Below are positions 2,493 through 23,942 of a stretch of DNA of 23,942 nucleotides, piece by piece. The position numbers and the translations under genes were made by a program. This stretch comes from Saccoglossus kowalevskii (lineage: Eukaryota > Hemichordata > Enteropneusta > Harrimaniidae): NCBI RefSeq assembly GCF_000003605.2, contig NW_003149267.1, positions 182,317-206,258 of the forward strand, written 5' to 3'. Every line of letters begins with the position of its first letter. Position 1 is the stretch's first letter. Below the pieces are notes generated by a model, which saw only the letters and a list, made by a program, of their open reading frames with translations, searched no databases and had not been told where the DNA came from.

Positions 2493-2496
2493 TTAA

Positions 2497-3382
2497 AGGG
2501 GAGCAGAGGTTCGGCTTTTGACACTCTGTACATGAAATTTGAGATCTATGAATGAATTCTGTCGATAAAAACAACTTGTATGTGCTGCGAAATGCCCTAA
2601 ATGTCGGGTATAAAACGGGCTGTGAAGCAGACGACAAACGTCCGCTTTTCATGGCGTCATTTCACCTCTAGAGGGCCAGTAAAATGACGTCATCAGTGAA
2701 CACTGATAATTGAGCCCATTCATGCTAGTATGTCAATCCCATAGAAATGCTACTATGAAAGACCTTGTTAACTGGCTACTTAAAAGTTGAAACATCGCGA
2801 AATGTTGTGCGTATGAATGCCATAACGATTCATGTTATGTTTCTCGAAATCCCAAATAAAAATCACATTGTTGGTTGCGAGAAATCGGCAGAAGAACTAA
2901 CCTGAAAACGAAGATACTAAACAGTGAGTAAACAAATATTGTTTGAGTTAAAAACTAATTTAGAAATACGCTAATATCACCTGAACTACAGTAATCATTT
3001 CGTCCAACTTCCCACTTTTAATCGACTGCTTATCGCTTAATATCCGACCGCACTGTATTTTCCGACCGGAAAACGACCGCATTTTTATCGTGTTTTCTCT
3101 CTCACTGACCCATTGAAAACACCGACCGGTCGCCCAAACACTGGTCACTGGCACAGGAGTGATCGAAATAGTGGTTTTGGGTGATATAGTTTGGGGATAC
3201 AACGGGTACTAACTATTATTAAATTCCGAACTACTCTTCAAATCTATACCACATTGTATCGTTCGCGGACAAAACTTCACCTGTGTTCAATATTAAATAA
3301 CTGACTTTGCGTAATTATTATTATGAAAGCGATATATTACAATGTTGAATTTTTTAGAGTTGGTACAACATTGTAAACAAAT
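2497..3382 (+). repeat. Left inverted-repeat arm of the TTAA element
   Basis: This arm is the reverse complement, with substitutions and small indels, of 4553-5345. Shared landmarks include GAGATCTATGAAT near 2540, CGACAAACGTCCGCTTTTC near 2630, TTGGTTGCGAGAAATCGGC near 2871, and GTATCGTTCGCG near 3257. The inner end is marked by GGTACAACATTGTAAACAAA at 3362-3381. A minus-strand open frame near 2960-3202 is repeat sequence, not a gene. Confidence 0.85.
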
Positions 3383-3410
3383 TTGCGTAATTAGAAAAGC
3401 AGCGCACTAA

Positions 3411-3864
3411 GGGACGACGTCAAAAGATCGATGTCGGATAAAAAACTTAATTCCTTTAGTTTTTTCCAAACCCCCCTACCCCCCACTGAAACTTAATTGA
3501 TAAATATTGGTCATGGCGTCAGACTACATTCACCATTAAATACAAATTGATAATTGGACAGTAGTATGGCATAGCAGTTGGCTGTCGGGTGGGTGTAAAA
3601 AGATTTTACAAATGCACCTCATTTGATGCACAGATTTACACTCGAACCAAACCATTTTTCTAGTTTTTTTTCCCCTTTTCGGTTATTTCTGTCCATGATT
3701 GGATAGAGAAAAAAAAATGAACTACAAATACTTCAAGATTTTTTTGACTTCATTAAAAAATAAAATCGTTTTTGTCGGATGGAAACTTTTTGAGGTCAAA
3801 ACCCCCCACCCCAAACTAAAGGAAACAAGTTTTTTATCCGACATCGATCTTTTGACGTCGTCCC
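3411..3864. mobile_element. PIF/Harbinger-like MITE nested in the TTAA element
   Basis: The termini GGGACGACGTCAAAAGATCG and their inverted copy at 3845-3864 match perfectly for about 39 bp and partly for about 50 bp. TAA flanks both ends (3408-3410, 3865-3867). A 3-bp TWA duplication with GGG-type ends is characteristic of PIF/Harbinger elements. The 454-bp interior has no significant ORF, so it is non-autonomous. It sits in the interior of the larger inverted-repeat element and therefore inserted after it. Confidence 0.85.
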
Positions 3865-4552
3865 TAAGTAAACGACCTCAAAATATACGCGGAGCATGAA
3901 AGAAAAAGATTGCTAAGGTAACGCGCCAGTTCTGTGCGTGACTTGGGGGTCAAACTTCGGTCAACGCTCACTTGATGTCGGCATCGCCGCGCAGTAAGTT
4001 ACGCAATGAAGTACTTAAAGGTCAATTGCATCCCAAAATGATGTTGTTGATCACTCAGTCTTTTGCAAAATTTCCAAGCTTTTGATGCAGCCAGATATAT
4101 TTAACTTTGTGGAAATATAATCTTTTTAATTTCCCAGTCCTTTCTGTTCATTCATTGTCTTGACAATAAGTGTGAATTGCTGTGCAAGCTTTTCGTACCC
4201 GACCGCCGTCAGACGGCGTCATGAAATCTATGCATAAAAGGCGGGCGACCTGCGGCTGTTTGATTTCCTACTCTCTCCTAAGCTAGCGATTGGTGAGAAT
4301 GGTCGTAAATCGGACAGTCATACCGCAATTGTGTTGAAACATTTTTGGGGCAGTAAGTAACGTCAGAATATTGTTTAAAATAAAATATTCCATCCCAATC
4401 AAATCTAGGTCAAAGGGTCAAATTGCGTGCATATAATTATAGATAGTTAAAAACTAAATATATTTGAATGTTTGACGGCTATTCAACGTTTGTGCAAACC
4501 AGAATAAAAAAGGTAGTGTATACAATAGCGATATGACTGAGATATCATGGCA
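3865..4552. other. Interior of the TTAA element, no ORF
   Basis: This unique middle part of the large inverted-repeat transposon carries no transposase-like open frame. A short inverted repeat GACCGCCGTCAGACGGCGTC lies near 4201-4220. Nothing else can be supported. Confidence 0.4.
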
Positions 4553-5345
4553 TTTGTTTACAATATTGTACCCTCTAGTATTTGACCACAGTCCCTCTAT
4601 ATCATGATAGAGGGACTGTGATTTGACACAGCTGAAGTTGTTCGCGAACGATACAGAATGGTATAGATTTGAAGAGCCGTTCAGAATTTTCTTTGTATAT
4701 CCCCAAACATTTTGACTACTCCTGTGCTGGTGACAAGTGTTTGGGCGAGCGGTCGGTGTTTTCAATAAGCGAGCGAGAGAAAAAAAAAACGGTAAAGATG
4801 TGGTCGTTTAAAAAGTGGGAAGTTGGGCAAAATGAGTACTGTGGTTCAAGTGATATTAGCATATTTCTCATTTAGTTTCAACTCGTACAATATTTATTCA
4901 CTCACTGTTTACTATAGCCAGAACGCTGTACTGTCTTTACTTTCAGGTTAGTTCTTTCGCCGATTTCTCGCAACCAACAACGTGATTTTTTATTTTCGAG
5001 AAACATAACATGAATCGTTATGGAATTCATAACCCAACACCTCGCCATGTTTCAACTTTTAAGTAGTCAGTTAACAAGGTCTTTCATAGTAGCATTTCTA
5101 TGGGATTGACGTACTAGCATGAATGGGTTCAATTATCAGTGTTCATTGATGACGTCATTTGACTGGCCCTCTAGAAGCGAAATGACGCCAGGAAAAGCGG
5201 ACGTTTGTCGTCTGCTTCACAGCTCGTTTTATACCCGATATTTAGGGCATTTCGCAACACATATAAGTTATTTTTATCACCATAATTAATTCATAGATCT
5301 CAGATTTCATGTACAGAGTGTCAAAAGCCACACCTCTGCTCCCCT
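4553..5345 (-). repeat. Right inverted-repeat arm of the TTAA element
   Basis: This is the inverted partner of 2497-3382. It is shorter than the left arm, partly because about 60 bp present in the left arm near 3295-3350 are missing here. It also carries a 34-bp hairpin insertion with a 7-bp duplication at 4580-4627 that the left arm lacks. Minus-strand open frames here are shadows of the repeat. Confidence 0.85.
4587..4620. mobile_element. Micro-palindrome insertion, copy 1 (7-bp duplication)
   Basis: A 34-bp perfect hairpin has 14-nt arms beginning CACAGTCCCTCTAT and a 6-nt loop. ATTTGAC occurs immediately on both sides (4580-4586, 4621-4627). It sits in the right arm of the TTAA element. 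The corresponding place in the left arm (near 3283-3296) lacks it, which acts as an empty site. Confidence 0.8.
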
Positions 5346-6790
5346 TTAATACAAGGTAAATTCCCAGAAAGCTGGAAATCAACAATACTGGTCCCTTTGC
5401 ATAAATCTGGCAACAAATCCGACCCAAATAATTATAGAGCGATTGCGTTATCAAGTTGCTTATCAATTTTAAGTCTACTTGTGGTGTTAAGCAAGGATGC
5501 AATATTTCACCAACACTTTTTAATATATTTCTGAATGACCTACCCGATTTATTTGGTAAAAAGGACGATGACCCAGTCTCGATTGGTAAAAAACATATAA
5601 ATTGTATCCAATATGCAGATGATTTAGTATTGGTGTCTAAGACTCCCGAAGGTCTACAAAATTGTTTAAATAAACTAGCCAACTATTGTGAAAAATGGAG
5701 CCTTGTAGTAAACATAAAGAAAACACAAGTGATGGTTTTTAATACTGGCAATCAACATTTCTCAATTAATAATCAAAATATTACAGCAGTGGGTGAATTC
5801 TGTTATTTAGGCACTATATTCACACCAAATGGAAAATTTAAATCAAATTTACTATGTTAAAAAAACAAAGCAATGAAAGCTTTATTCTCTATACGACAAA
5901 CCATATTAAATCACAAAATGGTGTCCCCTTCACTGTGTTTAAAGTTATTTGACCAACTAATTTCACCAATTTTAATGTACGGGGCAGAAATCTAGGCTTG
6001 TGATTAATTAAAAGATGACAATAATCTTGAACAAACCTGTAATCAATTCTATCGTTTCATAAGTATAACTACATCAGTAATCGGTATTAAAGGAGAACTT
6101 GGCAGAATGCCAATAAGAATAAAGGCATCGACATTGGCAACTAAATAATGGTTCGGGCTAAATACCCTACCTGATAACCATATACTTAAATGTGCTCTCG
6201 ATGAAGCAGTTAAGAATAATTCTAGCTGGATAAAACATATAGAAAATATAATGGGACACAATGACTTTGAAACAATAAAATTAAACCATAAAGCGAATAA
6301 CATTGATCAAATCTCAAATGTTGTTAAAATAAAACTCACAAAAGATTATGAAAAATTATGGAAAGAAAGCTTAAATTCTCCTCACAGTAAACATGGTAAA
6401 GATGGCAATAAAATGAGAACATGTAAATTATTTAAATTGTTTTTGAAAATAGAAACTTACCTGACAGAAATAACAAACTTGAGCCTTCGGAGAATTGTGA
6501 GTAAATTTAGGCTTAGTGATCATAAATTAGAAATTGAAAGAGGCAGACAACAACGACCAAAAATTCCTGCGGATGAGCGATTTTGTAAAAAATGTCATAC
6601 AAATTCAGTTGAGGACGAACAACATTTTATCCTAAATTGTGAATTTCTTGATAAAGAAAGAGGGGAGCTGTTTCAAGAAATAGGAATTAAAGATAAACTA
6701 AATAAAACAGACAATTTCATTAAAATAATGACGTGCTTCATACCCCTGGTAAAGTTTCTAAATAAGGCAAAAAAGAAATCAGGTATATGA
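5346..6790 (+). pseudogene. LINE reverse transcriptase (YADD) and C-terminal knuckle, broken
   Basis: Reading resumes in the same frame after the inserted element with a FPESWK...VPLHKSGN block, the second RT motif. It then reaches NYRAIALSSC and jumps almost directly to CGVKQGCNISPTLFN. The stretch that should lie between, with the first catalytic aspartate, is missing, so there is a deletion near 5455. The YADD active site is encoded around 5611-5622. Stops interrupt the thumb region (near 5858, 5994, 6146). The last open stretch (6251-6790) ends with a CX2CX9HX4C knuckle around 6592-6640, common at LINE C-termini. Not functional. Confidence 0.85.
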
Positions 6791-8607: not shown

Positions 8608-8878
8608 AATCTGATTAAAATAAGATCCTTTATTTTTTTCTATATTTATTTTATTTTGATCTAGTATTCATTCTTTGATAGTTTGTTTTTATGTTTTGGT
8701 AATTGCGAAAGCCAACAAGGATCGATGTATGTGGCGATAGTTAAACATATACCACAGTCCCTCTATCCGGAGGGACTGTGCATATACCAAATCACAAGTA
8801 CGTAACAAAAAACATAAAAAAATACAAAATAAATAAATAAAATACAAGCCGTACAATACATTAGATTTTAATCAGATT
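8608..8878. repeat. Possible fold-back repeat around hairpin copy 2
   Basis: AATCTGATTAAAAT at 8608-8621 is exactly inverted at 8865-8878. AT-rich stretches inside (TTTTATGTTTT near 8687 and its inverse near 8808) also pair loosely. The micro-palindrome lies near the centre. Much of the similarity is low-complexity, so the element call is weak. Confidence 0.35.
8753..8780. mobile_element. Micro-palindrome insertion, copy 2 (7-bp duplication)
   Basis: A 28-bp hairpin has 11-nt arms CACAGTCCCTC/GAGGGACTGTG and loop TATCCG. CATATAC lies directly on both sides (8746-8752, 8781-8787). It lies about 190 bp downstream of the sulfotransferase stop codon, so it could be in that gene's 3' UTR. Confidence 0.8.
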
Positions 8879-17800: not shown

Positions 17801-20800
17801 TAACATTTATTGCTTGTTATAACAACATTTTTAAAAATGTACACTTCTAAACGAAGTGAATATTCTTAGATCATTATTATGTAGTTGCTTTTTATGTATT
17901 CAATCATTGTTACACATGAACACACGATGCATTATACCACAGTCCCTCAACACCGGAACTGTGATTATTCATACTTTCAATTTTGTATACGTCATATGAG
18001 CCCCACACCGAACACGAGACGTTGGGTGACGCTTCAATCTAATAAGACCCCCCCCCCCGCGAAAAAATAATTGGGAGGCGTCGCCCCTCCATAATCAACT
18101 TGAAGTTGAAACCTTTTGTGTCAGCAAAATTAGCCTCTCAAAATGCAGGAAATAGCGTTTCAGAGGGTATAGATTCCATTTTTTTAAGGAGGGCATGCCT
18201 TTCTAGAAAGGTCGCTCCTTCGGCGCGAGGTTGGTGAGCAATCTCTGACCACTAAAAAAAGGTCTGAGCCAGAATGAACAAAGAAAATGTACACCTACCG
18301 CTAACATCGTAGACTTTAAATAGAAAGTTTAACTTGTCTGTTTTTGTTCCGTAATAAAGTCGATTTATTGCGTACAGTAGATGCCTTGTATTCACTCTAC
18401 CAGTATTGGTGTTGTCATAGAGACTGAAGAAACGCTTGGCAAAGAATGACTGAAACAAAAGATATGAAATTCAAATTATTTAGCAAAAGATGTATTATTA
18501 AAATATCAAAGGCTAATAAATCCATTGATAGTGTTAAAAATACAATAGAGAAGTTGTTGGTGTTTTATATTTTTAATTTTAAATTGTTTTTCATGTCAAT
18601 ATCTCATACGATGATTTTAAATCTTGCAACAATACGTCGTATTTAAGGCGGCATTGACGTCATGCCGAAATACCAAGTTTCGATTACATCGATGTGATAT
18701 CGAAACACATTCCCCTTGAATGCATTTGGTTGGGCCGTAACTGACTTTTCATGCATATGATTCTTGGTGAGGGCATGGAGCTTTGTTTTTAGCTCTATGG
18801 TGAGGGTCACCATGTATTTTGAAATATAAATGCAGTTATATTGTTTATGACTTTTTTATGTTTGTTAAATAAGTATCAGATACAGAATAATGTGGATATA
18901 AATGAACTATAAAAGGTCTTAGTGTGTAGTGTACAAAGTTCTAAGACGCAAAGCGGTTTACTTAAAATAACTGACCTTTTTCAAATGCAGAGCTTCTTTG
19001 AAGTCCAGAAAGTCGATCATTTTATCTTCTTTATCTCCTCGCACACCAAATAAATAGTGAAACCATGACAACCATTTTTCTTCTTTTGACAAACTGGGGA
19101 AAACAAGAGGAGGTTAATAATAACAATAACAAAATAACAAATATGACTATACATAATATTATTCTCTTGTCACATTATTTACAAACACTACCAAATCGAA
19201 ACTTACAAACTGATTACACGTAAGCATGATACAATGTCCACACAACTCAAATAACCACTTCCGTGGGCATCCAATATTTTAAACAACTTCTTGGCACACT
19301 GCAAAAAACACAAAACATAAGTAATTATTAAAGGGCAGTAGTCGTATCGCCACGCATGGGCGAGATTATGGGTCTCATATAAACAAAGATGGTGACTTTG
19401 ACTGTTGCGCAGATCAACATGTACAAACTGAGACGTTACGAAACTTTAATTAGGTACTTTTTAGGTGGTTGGAAGGTATCGAAGGAGTCACCGGTGGTAA
19501 TTAGTGTAAGTCGCGCCCAGGTCAAATCTCATATTGTGATTCCCATTAAAAGAGCGCATTGGATTGTGGGGTAATCAATGTTTATCAACACAAATGTCGG
19601 ACATGCGCAGCGAGACGACTACCGCGCTTTAAACATTCAGTGCATGCGCGTCATTGTAAAAAAAACAGCCTCTTTACGGCACCTTGTTATCACACGAGGA
19701 GATAAAAATATTTGTTGTACTTCTACTACCCAGTAATATATAAATCAAGTTAAAGACCTGCATATGGCATAGAGAGGTATTCTGTAAGTATTCCGTATTT
19801 AAAATTGTACAAGTAACCATGTGTATACCACCACAGTCACTCTCCTAGTAGAGTGGCTGTGATACCACTTACCTGACTGGTCTTTATGGTATCTCTAAAG
19901 CTCTTCATGGAAATTTCATGATTTTCTCCGCACACATTTTTAAATAATTTGTAAAACCAGTCTACATCTTGTTTCTGTTTTCCTTTACTGTAAATAATGT
20001 TGGATGAGAATGAATTGAGCTTACTTTTATATATAACAAAGACTTTACAATTGATTATGTTTCAATTACGCATGCGCAGTATTGCATAATTTCAATTTAC
20101 ATCAATACTACACAGTAATACCGCGATAGCACCGCTTACCTGGACAGTCTATAGAGTGCTCCTATCAACTCGTGAAAGTACATACTGCCGCCATTTTGTC
20201 CACTGAATATAGTATATAGTTGATATGCCAAATCCTATAATGAAAGTTACGGTAATAGTGAGTGGTTATTTATGGAAATTGCATTAGTCATTTGTGGTGG
20301 CATTGGTCGCAGATCATATGTTGCTGATTGTCTTTGTTACATTATTTGGTATATTGTAAATGTTTTCTCCAAACACAGGGTAAAATGACTACGTATATTC
20401 CAAACTGACATCATGAACTTTCATTTGTTGTTGTGAAATAGCAATTTAGTCACGTGGTAATGACATCACGTCATAATAGCATACCACGTGTTTCCGGTTG
20501 TCAGAAAGTACACTTATGTATACTGCTGTGCCGCCCATAGCCGAACGCATACTCTCCCGAACGCGACGATTCAATGTGCCACTGAATACAAAAAAATGTA
20601 TGTATCAGAAAAAATCACCCTCTTCATAGCTTCTCCTGCAAAGTGCATCAACTTTGACTGCGGGGGAAACATGAAACAGTCAATTCACCCTCGTGTTATA
20701 GGCTTTACGGTATCAGCAAGGCGCGTCGACACTTCTGAACAAACATCATCTAAGTCTAATTAGTTTATATCGGCATGTCACAGGTCAGATGCACACGTAA

Positions 20801-21663
20801 TGCTGTGTTCTCCCAGGAAGCTCCCTGGTTCTCCCAGGGTATCTTCGGGCATGGCGGTTTTACAGTGTTCAAACTTTCAAGAAAACAATAAAAGTTGTGA
20901 TTTTTCTAATCGATTTTATTGTTTCAAAATAGCTACTGATTGTTATGTCATGCTGTCCAAAATTCCCTAGAAGACCACTGTGACGCCTACATTAACTGCA
21001 ACACGGTTAGTAACCGTGACTGCAATAACGGTCTTAGGACGAGAATGTAGTTTTCATTTTAATAATACATGTAAATATTGGTAGCAACCGCTAGCGTGTG
21101 CTGTCCCATTATACTAGAAGGACTGTGGTATGTTGAAGAACGTGGATTCGTGGTTTAATACCGAAAATGACAAATAAAGTAACGTAATTGTTCTCAGTGT
21201 GATACTGGTTGCCTTATTTGACAACAACGGCTTTCTACTAGCCCGGAATTCTACGGGGTGGTTACCAACACACCGTGGAAATGATTTGACAAATTTGGAA
21301 AACAATCCTCATAAAATATTACATGGCGTAACATCGGTCCGGAATTATGGGAGTTATACAGAAGAGCAACGCTACATTCCCCAAAAAAGTCGCGACATGT
21401 TTTGCACGAAGTCCCGGACTTGCGAGGGAGGGTTGGTGTGATTACCCGTATTGCACGGCAATTTAGTTTACCGTACTCTCAGAGTACTTGGAACTTACCT
21501 CTGATAGCGAGGTGGCTCGGTCCACGAACTCCCTTTCTTTTATAAATCTTGACTCTCTGGTATTTAAGAAACGTTCCTCAAACCACGTCAATGCGATCGT
21601 TGTAGAGTTCTGTACGAAGTCTGGTACAATTTCGATAACTGCGTTCATAGATTTTGGTTCCAT
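11741..21663 (-). CDS. NOX5: NADPH oxidase 5 (NOX5)-like gene, 16 coding exons, 931 aa
   Basis: Predicted Ca2+-activated NADPH oxidase: electrons pass from NADPH through FAD and two haems across a membrane to O2, giving superoxide. Exons (minus strand): 21499-21663, 20140-20234, 19873-19987, 19207-19298, 18976-19093, 18299-18449, 17409-17619, 16862-17076, 16569-16757, 15991-16103, 15524-15715, 14568-14700, 13979-14376, 12729-12938, 12067-12333, 11741-11872. All introns are GT-AG, phases agree throughout, and the 2796-nt sum is divisible by three. Order: EF-hand-like motifs 56-300, six membrane helices about 348-525, FAD motif HPFTISSAP (585-593), acidic linker (about 618-729), NADPH motif GAGIGVTPF (753-761), C-terminus ENF. 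Haem ligands would be H428/H442 and H494/H507, with the family spacing of 13 and 12. The start has an in-frame TAA 13 codons upstream and a good Kozak context. The protein is longer than vertebrate NOX5 (about 720-765 aa). EF-hands plus this core make NOX5 far likelier than NOX1-4 or DUOX. Confidence 0.93.
12067..12333 (-). CDS. NOX5: NOX5-like exon 15 (residues 800-888), NADPH-binding core
   Basis: Acceptor CCACCAG and donor GTAATG, phase 0. It encodes VDFYWINRSQTSFEWF, the family's W-x-N/R-x-Q-x-x-x-x-WF signature, then HLYMTSARGKGD and NPGKPDWDE, conserved adenine- and ribose-phosphate contacts. Confidence 0.94.
12729..12938 (-). CDS. NOX5: NOX5-like exon 14 (residues 730-799), NADPH-binding start
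   Basis: Acceptor ATTGCAG and donor AAG|GTAAAA. It encodes VYIDGPYGSP and HAVLIGAGIGVTPFASILQS, the pyrophosphate-binding loop for NADPH. A CPKC pair follows, as in vertebrate NOX5. Confidence 0.94.
12961..13168. mobile_element. TACTGTAAA-type MITE in a NOX5 intron, copy 1
   Basis: This 208-bp inverted-repeat element begins TACTGTAAAATCATTTA and ends with a decayed CTACAGTA. It lies in the intron between exons 13 and 14. It aligns along its length with 15740-15932, including GATTTAATTTA and GTGAATAATTA. TA at both ends suggests a Tc1/mariner-like target, which is inference. Confidence 0.75.
13220..13500. mobile_element. TTAA-type MITE, copy B (281 bp)
   Basis: The right end GCGACGACCACCACACT is followed by TTAA (13501-13504). 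The left end ATGGAAGTGGTCGTTGCGC is preceded by a decayed TTGA. The interior TATGAACAAAGATGGTGACC matches copy D (TATAAACAAAGATGGTGACT). It lies in the intron between exons 13 and 14. Open frames inside it are not genes. Confidence 0.7.
13979..14376 (-). CDS. NOX5: NOX5-like exon 13 (residues 597-729), FAD barrel end and acidic linker
   Basis: Acceptor TTTCGCAG and donor GTTAGT, phase 0. It opens with DTISLHIRAVGNWTKKL, conserved in NOX5. About 110 unconserved residues rich in D, E, S and T follow (for example ANENDDDR and KEDSDTELE), filling the position of the regulatory loop between the FAD and NADPH modules. The exact 3' boundary rests on the GTTAGT donor and phase. Confidence 0.87.
14568..14700 (-). 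CDS. NOX5: NOX5-like exon 12 (residues 553-597), FAD-binding motif
   Basis: Acceptor TTCTTAG and donor GTAAGA. It encodes GEYVYINIP and EWHPFTISSAP, the conserved FAD isoalloxazine and ribityl binding motif of NOX enzymes. Confidence 0.93.
14830..14942. repeat. 113-bp inverted repeat with CACAGTCTGGG ends
   Basis: CACAGTCTGGGCGATT at the left is inverted as AATCACCCAGACTGTG at the right, with one mismatch. The A-rich middle is non-coding. No matching flanking duplication is seen. It lies in the NOX5 intron between exons 11 and 12 and may be a small MITE. Confidence 0.6.
15524..15715 (-). CDS. NOX5: NOX5-like exon 11 (residues 489-552), helices 5-6 with haem histidines
   Basis: Acceptor TATTCTAG and donor GTAAGT, phase 0. 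It encodes FYWTHQLIFLLWAVLIAHAP, with H494 and H507 12 residues apart as expected. Next come FPGILYVMER, the sixth helix exit, and LPSK, the start of the FAD-binding barrel. Confidence 0.93.
15740..15932. mobile_element. TACTGTAAA-type MITE in a NOX5 intron, copy 2
   Basis: Begins ACTGTAAAACCATTAATTAT and ends AATAATTAACGCATTTACAGTA, an inverted match. It is about 193 bp and homologous to 12961-13168. It lies between exons 10 and 11, ending about 58 bp from the exon 10 donor. Confidence 0.75.
15991..16103 (-). CDS. NOX5: NOX5-like exon 10 (residues 451-488), helix 4
   Basis: Acceptor TATGACAG and donor CAG|GTAAGG. It encodes NLTGLLLVIILIIIVACSLP, the fourth helix, then VRRNGYFQ. The loop between helices 3 and 4 is about 20 residues shorter than in vertebrate NOX5. 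Exons 9 and 10 meet in phase 1, so a skipped phase-1 exon in the intron cannot be ruled out, though none is obvious. Confidence 0.88.
16344..16488. mobile_element. TTAA-type MITE, copy C (145 bp)
   Basis: The ends AGCGGGGAGTCGTCACCTGC and GACGACCCTCCCGCT are inverted repeats. Exact TTAA lies on both sides (16340-16343, 16489-16492). GC-rich CGCATGCG-type motifs inside also occur in copies B and D. It lies in the intron between exons 9 and 10. Confidence 0.8.
16569..16757 (-). CDS. NOX5: NOX5-like exon 9 (residues 388-451), helices 2-3 with haem histidines
   Basis: Acceptor TTGGCAG and donor GTGAGT. It encodes LMLRKCLTWLRRTML, diagnostic of NOX5, then HKMVGWIIVILSIIHTVSH. H428 and H442 are 13 residues apart, the NOX third-helix haem-ligand spacing. 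Confidence 0.94.
16862..17076 (-). CDS. NOX5: NOX5-like exon 8 (residues 316-388), first membrane helix
   Basis: Acceptor TCCATAG and donor GTAAGT. A lysine-rich linker (SPKKQQKNK) precedes the first transmembrane helix (about 348-366, CVAFLACYVLLNMALFA). The exon ends in AIAKGS, leading into the conserved G-x-C/x-LNF segment. Confidence 0.92.
17409..17619 (-). CDS. NOX5: NOX5-like exon 7 (residues 246-316)
   Basis: Acceptor CTAACAG and donor AG|GTACGT. It completes one EF-hand (GNDVIDWNVL) and encodes the last and most canonical one, DRNGTGVITFED (287-298), followed by LEKYPEILDNLT, a strong NOX5 signature. A longer open frame runs upstream into the intron and is not exon. Confidence 0.92.
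17938..17963. mobile_element. Micro-palindrome insertion, copy 3 (7-bp duplication, one mismatch)
   Basis: A 26-bp partly decayed hairpin, CACAGTCCC...GGAACTGTG, is flanked by ATTATAC (17931-17937) and ATTATTC (17964-17970). It lies in the NOX5 intron between exons 6 and 7. Confidence 0.7.
18040..18240. repeat. Possible dispersed repeat fragment
   Basis: A C-run precedes GGGAGGCGTCGCCCCTCC and AAAATGCAGGAAATAGCGTTTCAGAGGG. Inverted or GC-rich short blocks such as GGCGTCGCC stand out from the AT-rich intron. The pattern resembles repeat fragments I have seen in marine invertebrate genomes, but I cannot name a family. It lies in the NOX5 intron between exons 6 and 7. Confidence 0.3.
18299..18449 (-). 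CDS. NOX5: NOX5-like exon 6 (residues 196-246)
   Basis: Acceptor TTTCAG and donor GTAGGT. It encodes SFFAKRFFSLYDNTNTGRVN, an EF-hand loop from D207 with H at position 12 instead of E. It ends in KVYDVS, the start of the next EF-hand, which the intron splits as in other NOX5 genes. Confidence 0.9.
18976..19093 (-). CDS. NOX5: NOX5-like exon 5 (residues 156-195)
   Basis: Acceptor CCCCAG and donor GTCAGT. It encodes EEKWLSWFHYLFGVRGDKED then DFKEALHLKK. This segment aligns best with the very start of vertebrate NOX5, so exons 1-4 are an extra N-terminal part. The EF loop is atypical, as in the first NOX5 EF-hand. Confidence 0.88.
19207..19298 (-). CDS. NOX5: NOX5-like exon 4 (residues 126-156)
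   Basis: Acceptor TTTTGCAG and donor GTAAGT. It encodes FKILDAHGSGYLSCVDIV, a good EF-hand loop starting at D135 with G140 and D146 at position 12. It probably pairs with the degenerate motif in exon 3. Confidence 0.88.
19332..19628. mobile_element. TTAA-type MITE, copy D (297 bp)
   Basis: The ends AGGGCAGTAGTCGTATCGCC and GCGAGACGACTACCGCGCT are inverted repeats. Exact TTAA lies on both sides (19328-19331, 19629-19632). Interior sequence matches copy B, including the TATAAACAAAGATGGTGACT block and AACACAAAT near the right end. It lies in the intron between exons 3 and 4. Confidence 0.8.
19832..19861. mobile_element. Micro-palindrome insertion, copy 4, next to a splice donor
   Basis: A 30-bp hairpin, CACAGTCACTC...GAGTGGCTGTG (one arm mismatch), is flanked by exact ATACCAC on both sides (19825-19831, 19862-19868). 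It begins at intron position +12 after NOX5 exon 3 on the minus strand. The duplication covers intron +5 to +11, so the donor sequence was kept. Confidence 0.8.
19873..19987 (-). CDS. NOX5: NOX5-like exon 3 (residues 87-125)
   Basis: Acceptor TTTACAG and donor CAG|GTAAGT. It encodes DVDWFYKLFKNVCGENHEIS, a degenerate second EF-hand with a shortened, unconserved loop. The donor is directly followed by hairpin copy 4. Confidence 0.85.
20140..20234 (-). CDS. NOX5: NOX5-like exon 2 (residues 56-87)
   Basis: Acceptor TTATAG and donor GTAAGC; phase 0 to 2. It encodes YTIFSGQNGGSMYFHELIGA, an EF-hand-like loop with G at position 6 and E at position 12 but S instead of D at position 1, so Ca2+ binding may be lost. 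Confidence 0.85.
20488..21060. other. Intron 1 segment without recognised features
   Basis: Part of the long first NOX5 intron. A plus-strand 91-codon frame (20488-20763) has no family signal. Short stem-loops occur: CCCTGGTTCTCCCAGGG near 20822-20838 and CACGGTTAGTAACCGTG near 21002-21018. Function is unknown. Confidence 0.4.
21101..21127. repeat. Decayed micro-palindrome, copy 5
   Basis: On the minus strand this reads CATAC then CACAGTCC...GGGACAG, matching the family's left arm and preceding AC, but the other arm and the second flanking repeat have decayed. It lies in NOX5 intron 1. Confidence 0.45.
21499..21663 (-). CDS. NOX5: NOX5-like exon 1 (residues 1-55)
   Basis: Starts GGGATGG (G at -3 and +4). 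An in-frame TAA lies 13 codons upstream with no other ATG between. Ends LSE before donor GTAAGTT, phase 0. It encodes the helical lead-in (WFEERF) before the first EF-hand-like motif and has no signal peptide, consistent with a cytosolic N-terminus. Confidence 0.8.
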
Positions 21664-23930: not shown

Positions 23931-23942
23931 CACAGTCACTCG
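23931..23942. mobile_element. Micro-palindrome, copy 6, cut by the window end
   Basis: The window ends in CACAGTCACTCG preceded by ATATCAC. This matches the left arm of copy 4 and the family's preceding AC. The right arm lies outside the window. Confidence 0.5.

Follow-up and report, generated by a model that had tools for sequence, protein, structure and literature searches.

The stretch of DNA analyzed here (hereafter the window, 23,942 nucleotides) lies on contig C3943 in a 572-Mb, 4830-contig assembly of Saccoglossus kowalevskii, the genome surveyed throughout. Coding pieces in the window are a sulfotransferase, EF-hand and NAD-binding exons, and a reverse transcriptase fragment. The latter occupies positions 5456-5860 on the forward strand (RVT_1, E 8.6e-21), and two ORFs lie near it on the same strand, one of 104 amino acids at 2241 and one of 179 amino acids at 6251. 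A large imperfect inverted repeat spans positions 2493-5349 and encloses about 1.3 kb; its alignment covers 813 columns at 77%, with one 315-nt stretch at 93%.

Four hairpins with common arms, each between 7-bp direct repeats, had been predicted in this window. All four were present at the predicted positions, three with exact repeats and one with six of seven bases matching. Two additional copies had been proposed. The one at 21101-21127 had no clear duplication and is a possible decayed footprint, and the one at 23931 met an assembly gap (the extended sequence to its right is N, L006 position 248) and was assigned to no class. The features are as follows.

4580..4586, unstranded: left target-site duplication, ATTTGAC
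4587..4620, unstranded: probable 34-bp excision footprint with subfamily A tails (CACAGTCCCTCTATCAC)
4621..4627, unstranded: right target-site duplication, ATTTGAC
8746..8752, unstranded: left target-site duplication, CATATAC
8753..8780, unstranded: probable 28-bp excision footprint with subfamily A1 tails (CACAGTCCCTCTATCCC)
8781..8787, unstranded: right target-site duplication, CATATAC
17931..17937, unstranded: left target-site duplication, ATTATAC
17938..17963, unstranded: probable 26-bp excision footprint with subfamily B tails (CACAGTCCCTCAACACC)
17964..17970, unstranded: right target-site duplication, ATTATTC (6/7 against ATTATAC)
19825..19831, unstranded: left target-site duplication, ATACCAC
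19832..19861, unstranded: probable 30-bp excision footprint with subfamily C tails (CACAGTCACTCTMCTAG)
19862..19868, unstranded: right target-site duplication, ATACCAC
21101..21127, unstranded: possible decayed footprint, only the right arm GAAGGACTGTG, no clear duplication
23931..23942, unstranded: left arm with flank ATATCAC, from either a footprint or an element; its right side falls in the assembly gap

By inspection, the hairpin at 4587..4620 divides into 14 nt on the left, 16 nt on the right and a 4-nt insert, and that at 8753..8780 into 16 nt and 11 nt plus one extra base. The hairpin at 17938..17963 has a whole 17-nt tail on the left and 9 nt with one substitution on the right. At 19832..19861 two 17-nt tails appeared on inspection to be fused through a 4-nt CTAG at their tips, with one substitution. 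Insofar as the four hairpins span at least three subfamilies of one terminal inverted repeat (TIR) family, they are not copies of one amplified unit. The arm sequence itself, searched in the window with up to two mismatches, gave 15 matches against 5.6 expected and a maximum of 14 in 100 shuffles.

The hairpin at 4587 lies just within the right arm of the large inverted repeat. The paralogous arm was considered as an empty site for this hairpin and rejected, being footprint-free but poorly aligned beyond the site. Evidence on alleles was drawn from one assembly.

Genome-wide hairpins, duplications and target sites

The genome search that had been proposed, with the pattern CACAGTCMCTC-N(2-12)-GAGKGACTGTG, was carried out and returned 330 places, and the reversed-pattern control returned none. 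A version with a centre of 13-42 nt returned 84 places, also with no control matches; this set partly overlaps the first (C310 is in both) and contains a deletion copy on C1346. The flanks were tabulated for 81 places among the matches listed (50 of the 330 and 31 of the 84). Exact 7-bp duplications were found at 59, six of seven bases matched at 14, and five or fewer matched at eight. When left and right flanks of different places were compared as a control, 1 of 6480 comparisons gave an exact 7-bp match. Duplications of 7-8 bp had been predicted, and the 7-bp length stood while the 8-bp length did not, since none of 25 sites (21 of the 81 plus the four in the window) matched over eight bases. 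One of the eight flank failures, L116 (C773:49900-50006), resolved by eye into two neighbouring scars separated by 5 bp, the first exactly duplicated as ACTAGAT and the second as GTTAAAC. The eight failures, of which L116 alone is so accounted for, count against the excision account given below.

A wider scan allowing short and asymmetric products listed 33 sites with exact duplications, although some of the rows with loose arms or very short length (L003 724, L010 3227, L032 243, L035 174) may be due to chance. Some copies had a more complex history. An identical 21-bp footprint in identical flanking sequence was present at three places (L033, L047 and L048), with L039 sharing the left flank only; this footprint is inherited within a repeat that multiplied later. 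At L020 4850-5546 a footprint is followed by a tandem repetition, 99% identical, of 287 bp from its right flank, with half a footprint at the end; complex repair, or the assembly of two haplotypes into one sequence, may account for this arrangement. The copy at L020 5278 had been taken as a longer element and proved to be this tandem right-flank copy and half footprint.

The predicted frequency of about one copy per 4 kb applies to the window only. The 330 places in 572 Mb correspond to about 0.014 per 24 kb, and two places in the window match the strict pattern. Scars appeared clustered in the window, with its four per 24 kb, and in L008, L021 and L022, the last with two whose starts are 75 bp apart. 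Such apparent clustering may reflect local hopping or insertion hot spots.

The duplications were also used to examine target preference. All sites had been expected to end in AC, but only 18 of the 59 exact duplications do so; 10 start with GT, and two have both. The stronger signals were T at position 2 (36/59) and A at position 6 (40/59). Both were present at 23 sites, one alone at 30 and neither at six. Random re-pairing of the duplication halves gave a mean of 24.3 sites with both, and 32% of re-pairings reached the observed value; the same test for GT and AC halves gave 31%. The halves thus appear independent over the 59 sites, and nothing points to the polar target choice that had been suggested. 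An earlier, smaller sample had leaned towards polarity, with exactly one GT or AC half at 15 of 19 sites, and this lean was lost at 59 sites. Outside the duplication, with both strands of 58 sites pooled, 84 of the 116 half-sites carried T at position -3. The half-site reads TNNRTT, with the first duplicated base G in 39 and A in 41 of the 116. Target motifs that extend past the duplication have been reported for Galileo and P (PMC4168063).

Retained arm lengths and repair products

The length of retained TIR was determined for 200 arms among the matches listed (both arms of 50 of the 330 and 50 of the 84 places) as the number of bases agreeing with the best of five TIR versions. The pattern fixes the first 11 nt of the arms. 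Retained lengths were 11 nt in 18 arms, 12 nt in 13, 13 nt in 21, 14 nt in 34, 15 nt in 27, 16 nt in 37 and 17 nt in 49. No arm retained 18-29 nt and one retained 30 nt, the parent TIR being 30-32 nt long. The sole arm at 30 nt belongs to the 59-bp deletion copy (L058, C1346). Hairpins of the 330-place set are limited by the pattern to 34 bp overall, and the 84-place set, free up to 64 bp, showed the same edge, with 19 of 100 arms at 17 nt and one beyond. Subfamily C arms compared with their own TIR gave 15 of 32 at 17 nt and none beyond. The Drosophila P transposase makes a staggered cut, with one strand opened at the end of the element and the opposite strand 17 bp further in (PMC7776569). 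Because the arms stop at 17 nt, equal to this stagger, the edge reads as a cut site, and the scars would on the evidence of their sequences carry the 17-nt stagger of the P superfamily.

The position of this edge bears directly on the possibility that the hairpins are extreme internal deletions, formed by interrupted gap repair from a sister element rather than by end joining of tails. An origin of this kind would suit a minority of copies, namely the 59-bp copy on C1346, in which one side has 30 nt or more of TIR and the duplication is exact, and a 318-bp copy on C532 (L031) with 17 nt on one side and apparent element sequence on the other. Interrupted repair would, however, be expected to stop at many points beyond 17 nt, and the 18-29 nt interval was empty among the 200 arms. 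As an account of the hairpins in general, gap repair is very improbable.

The joins themselves were classified according to the best-fitting tail version. Among the matches listed, 50 shorter hairpins comprised 16 simple joins with neither overlap nor insert, seven overlaps of 1-4 nt, 20 joins with 1-3 inserted bases and seven with at least four; in 50 longer hairpins, two had 1-3 inserted bases and 48 had at least four. There were 46 inserts of at least 5 nt (621 nt altogether); the deletion copy L058, the double scar L116 and a few inserts of low complexity are counted among them. Five-mers from the hairpin's own tails covered 294 nt of this insert sequence, whereas 500 shuffles gave 55 nt on average and never more than 104. 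One 21-bp product, CACAGTCCCTCTATCAC joined to TGTG, contains a 2-nt AC overlap corresponding to tail positions 16-17. It was found at five loci (L032, L034, L040, L049 and L050) with five different exact duplications, and so arose several times. Asymmetric products with 17 nt on one side, 4 nt on the other and an exact duplication were also observed. The tails of subfamily C end in CTAG, which is self-complementary, and 30-bp products joined at CTAG made up six of the eight C-type hairpins among 50 of the 330 matches listed.

An origin as minimal, TIR-only MITEs, or as an ultra-short mobile element, had been put forward in the original prediction; here a transposase would have inserted the 24-34 bp unit itself, and no larger element would ever have left the site. 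Common arms and site-specific 7-bp duplications are what such an insertion would be expected to give, and certain centres do recur (TCCTAGTA in four of 50 hairpins). The hairpins nevertheless share no internal sequence amplified as a unit. There were 43 different centres among the 50, the longer ones with copied filler, and the arms do not keep the full parent TIR but end at 17 of 30 nt (one exception in 200). The asymmetric products are a further point against this origin. The stiffness of short DNA limits how readily two ends can be brought together, and DNA of 24-34 bp would probably be too stiff for end pairing in a transpososome. The evidence thus runs against minimal MITEs, which we regard as a highly unlikely source of the hairpins.

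The classes of join resemble those described in flies. Excision of Drosophila P{wa} leaves 17-nt tails that are repaired by microhomology, blunt joins and templated inserts (PMC2895639). The same product classes were reported at P{wa} breaks in spn-A flies, which lack Rad51, and the authors credit polymerase theta with long-microhomology annealing and copied inserts (PMC2895639). By analogy, polymerase theta may act in repair in the present genome.

Source elements and a candidate transposase

The 17-mer CACAGTCCCTCTATCAC occurred at 163 places in the genome, and its reversed control at none. Twenty-two of these heads were inspected. In seven, as in real elements, the sequence carried on as CGGTCT-like or CAGTCT-like, eight were exact-duplication scars (L032 298, L034, L037, L038, L040, L043, L049 and L050), and the last seven included L033, L047 and L048, which belong to one repeat with an inherited scar, together with ambiguous ones. 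A pattern for the 30-bp TIR covering subfamilies A and B, with at most one mismatch, matched 185 places (control, none), at least one of which is the deletion copy of 59 bp on C1346. Seven inward-facing TIR pairs were read whole, with lengths of 191, 1014, 1130, 1131, 1144, 1167 and 1329 bp. Their 7-bp duplications were exact in six, and the 1144-bp copy matched at six of seven bases. Four of the seven form one family with 88-92% identity. The TIRs of these source elements, about 30 bp with CA..TG ends, are of the P-superfamily type, and the duplication length is 7 bp as in Galileo, not 8 bp as in P.

For subfamily C, a genome search for source copies by the inner motif of subfamilies A and B found no places. 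A looser pattern found one subfamily C end, on C314, in which AACGGTTAGGAAGCG directly follows the 17-nt tail. Scars of subfamily C often combine a TCCTAG tail with a TACTAG tail (C1, C169, C201, C344 and the window copy at 19832), as if the source had unequal ends. Inward-facing 17-mer tails 2405 bp apart on C2789 were considered as an element but read as two separate 21-bp footprints, one with an exact duplication and the other with none.

The genome was also searched with PF21787, a profile for the RNase H portion at the N terminus of P-type transposases. It gave 13 matches here and none in 14 control genomes, the best on C1630. When this locus was extended, a 7942-bp unit was found with an identical 30-bp TIR, CACCGTCCCTCAACACCCGGTTAAGAAACG, at both ends. 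The copy carries PF21787 (E 1.1e-27) and PF21789 (E 8.9e-7), and between them PF21788, the GTP-binding insertion (E 1.1e-13), across two ORFs in series. A single TIR-bounded copy is therefore predicted to encode the P-superfamily arrangement of an RNase H fold interrupted by a GTP-binding insertion domain, in a reading frame that is probably broken as by introns. Direct comparison with the structure 6p5a of Drosophila P transposase gave a weak match (E 0.0048; none at the default threshold of 0.001), which placed HDEVKI over FDEMKV. Longer elements with the same ends and a THAP/P-type transposase had been anticipated; the elements and the P-type domains were found, and the THAP domain was not found by Pfam in the ORFs of the 7942-bp copy, the first exons of which are outside the resolved ORFs. 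A C2H2 finger was found by Pfam in a separate reverse ORF of the copy. Its reverse-strand ORFs (L030 1036-2007 and 2953-3300) comprise a frame of 351 amino acids (323 from the ATG) with no Pfam match and the C2H2-finger ORF.

Three further ends of the C1630 family are 98.6-99% identical over 71-150 bp, which suggests that movement was perhaps not long ago. The 7942-bp copy has CACCGTC where the B tail has CACAGTC, a difference of one base. Its two flanks, agtgggt and gcaatac, are unlike each other, so that the copy may be rearranged. In view of the tail mismatch and the unmatched flanks, it is only a candidate source of the scars. At other P-transposase loci (L026, L027 and L028), no matching TIR pair was found in the stretches searched, which in L027 included 2082 N. 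The C1630 locus L025 by itself also lacked a TIR pair, which was found in its extensions L029 and L030.

These elements bear on whether the hairpins could be excision scars of another superfamily, such as hAT, PIF or mariner. Cut-and-paste elements outside the P superfamily also leave scars between duplications. Those of hAT, PIF and mariner are not known to retain more than a few TIR bases, though, and the 7-bp duplications, the 30-bp TIRs with CA..TG ends and the P-type transposase inside fit the P superfamily instead. Another superfamily is hardly credible as the source, the least probable of the alternatives considered. As far as could be seen, the source elements form a family that is new within the P superfamily and has a Galileo-like duplication length.

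An excision account and its comparison with known systems

The hairpins are almost certainly repair scars of P-superfamily transposon excision, one scar for each element lost. The excision-footprint reading of the original prediction was borne out by the source elements, the P-type transposase, the 17-nt edge and the repair products. In the proposed mechanism, a P-superfamily transposon would insert with a 7-bp duplication and later be excised. The transposase would make staggered cuts, one at the element's end and one on the opposite strand 17 nt into the TIR, so that each broken chromosome end would be left with a 17-nt single-stranded TIR tail. End joining would then trim, anneal or fill the tails, often copying pieces of them, before sealing. 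In the product, the two copies of the duplication would enclose a stretch of TIR followed by an inverted one, neither longer than 17 nt. The result would be a hairpin of at most 34 bp, or a longer one where an insert was copied. The cutter would be a C1630-type transposase and the repair enzyme polymerase theta; both, like the overhang's polarity, are inferred.

Drosophila P{wa} junctions, as described in PMC2895639, have the same layout, with remnants of TIR and inverted TIR, each of 17 nt at most, between the two duplications, and the same short microhomology, blunt joins and templated inserts. P{wa} is one marked element followed in laboratory crosses, whereas the present set comprises hundreds of natural candidates in one genome; Drosophila P also has an 8-bp duplication, against 7 bp here, and another TIR sequence (PMC2895639). 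Galileo shares the 7-bp duplications and a target motif beyond the duplication (PMC4168063, PMC3573991). Its consensus GTANTAC (PMC4168063, PMC3573991) has T2 and A6 in common with the present sites, at which G1 and C7 are weak. Galileo has long, internally repetitive TIRs, while those of the present elements are 30 bp and not of the very long kind. Anopheles P elements and P-MITEs are similar in their 27-31 bp TIRs, in autonomous copies of 4.2-7.5 kb and in short non-autonomous copies that share ends with the autonomous ones, and differ in having 8-bp duplications (PMC1562414). Zebrafish THAP9 and Pdre2 likewise represent a P-type transposase in a non-insect animal, but Pdre2 has 13-bp TIRs (CATACCTGTCAAC) and 8-bp duplications (PMC10983969). 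The term "footprint" is absent from the main texts of the Galileo paper PMC3573991 and the Anopheles P paper PMC1562414. Among the papers listed, no title or abstract opening mentioned genome-wide P-type footprints, a scope that does not establish absence from print.

The mechanism is the ordinary one of P-element excision repair, and what is unusual is the scale, a dispersed repeat composed of repair scars. It is an evenly balanced proposition that this is a recently active, non-insect P-superfamily system in which theta-type joining sealed excisions often enough to make scars the commonest dispersed trace, including subfamily C scars with rare source copies. The data suggest that the 17-nt cut has been conserved in a distant family whose duplications are 7 bp long. 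For repeat annotation, a dispersed hairpin with duplications may be a family of scars and not a mobile element, and such scars can reveal transposons that are now rare or gone. P-element scars have so far been studied at marked fly loci, and one assembly here gives hundreds of natural candidates, enough to map the cut to the base. If the system was indeed of this recently active kind, these scars would be a natural, genome-wide record of the cut site of one transposase and of break repair in one animal, with a repair spectrum of microhomology, blunt joins and tail-copied inserts that could be read in an animal without genetics.
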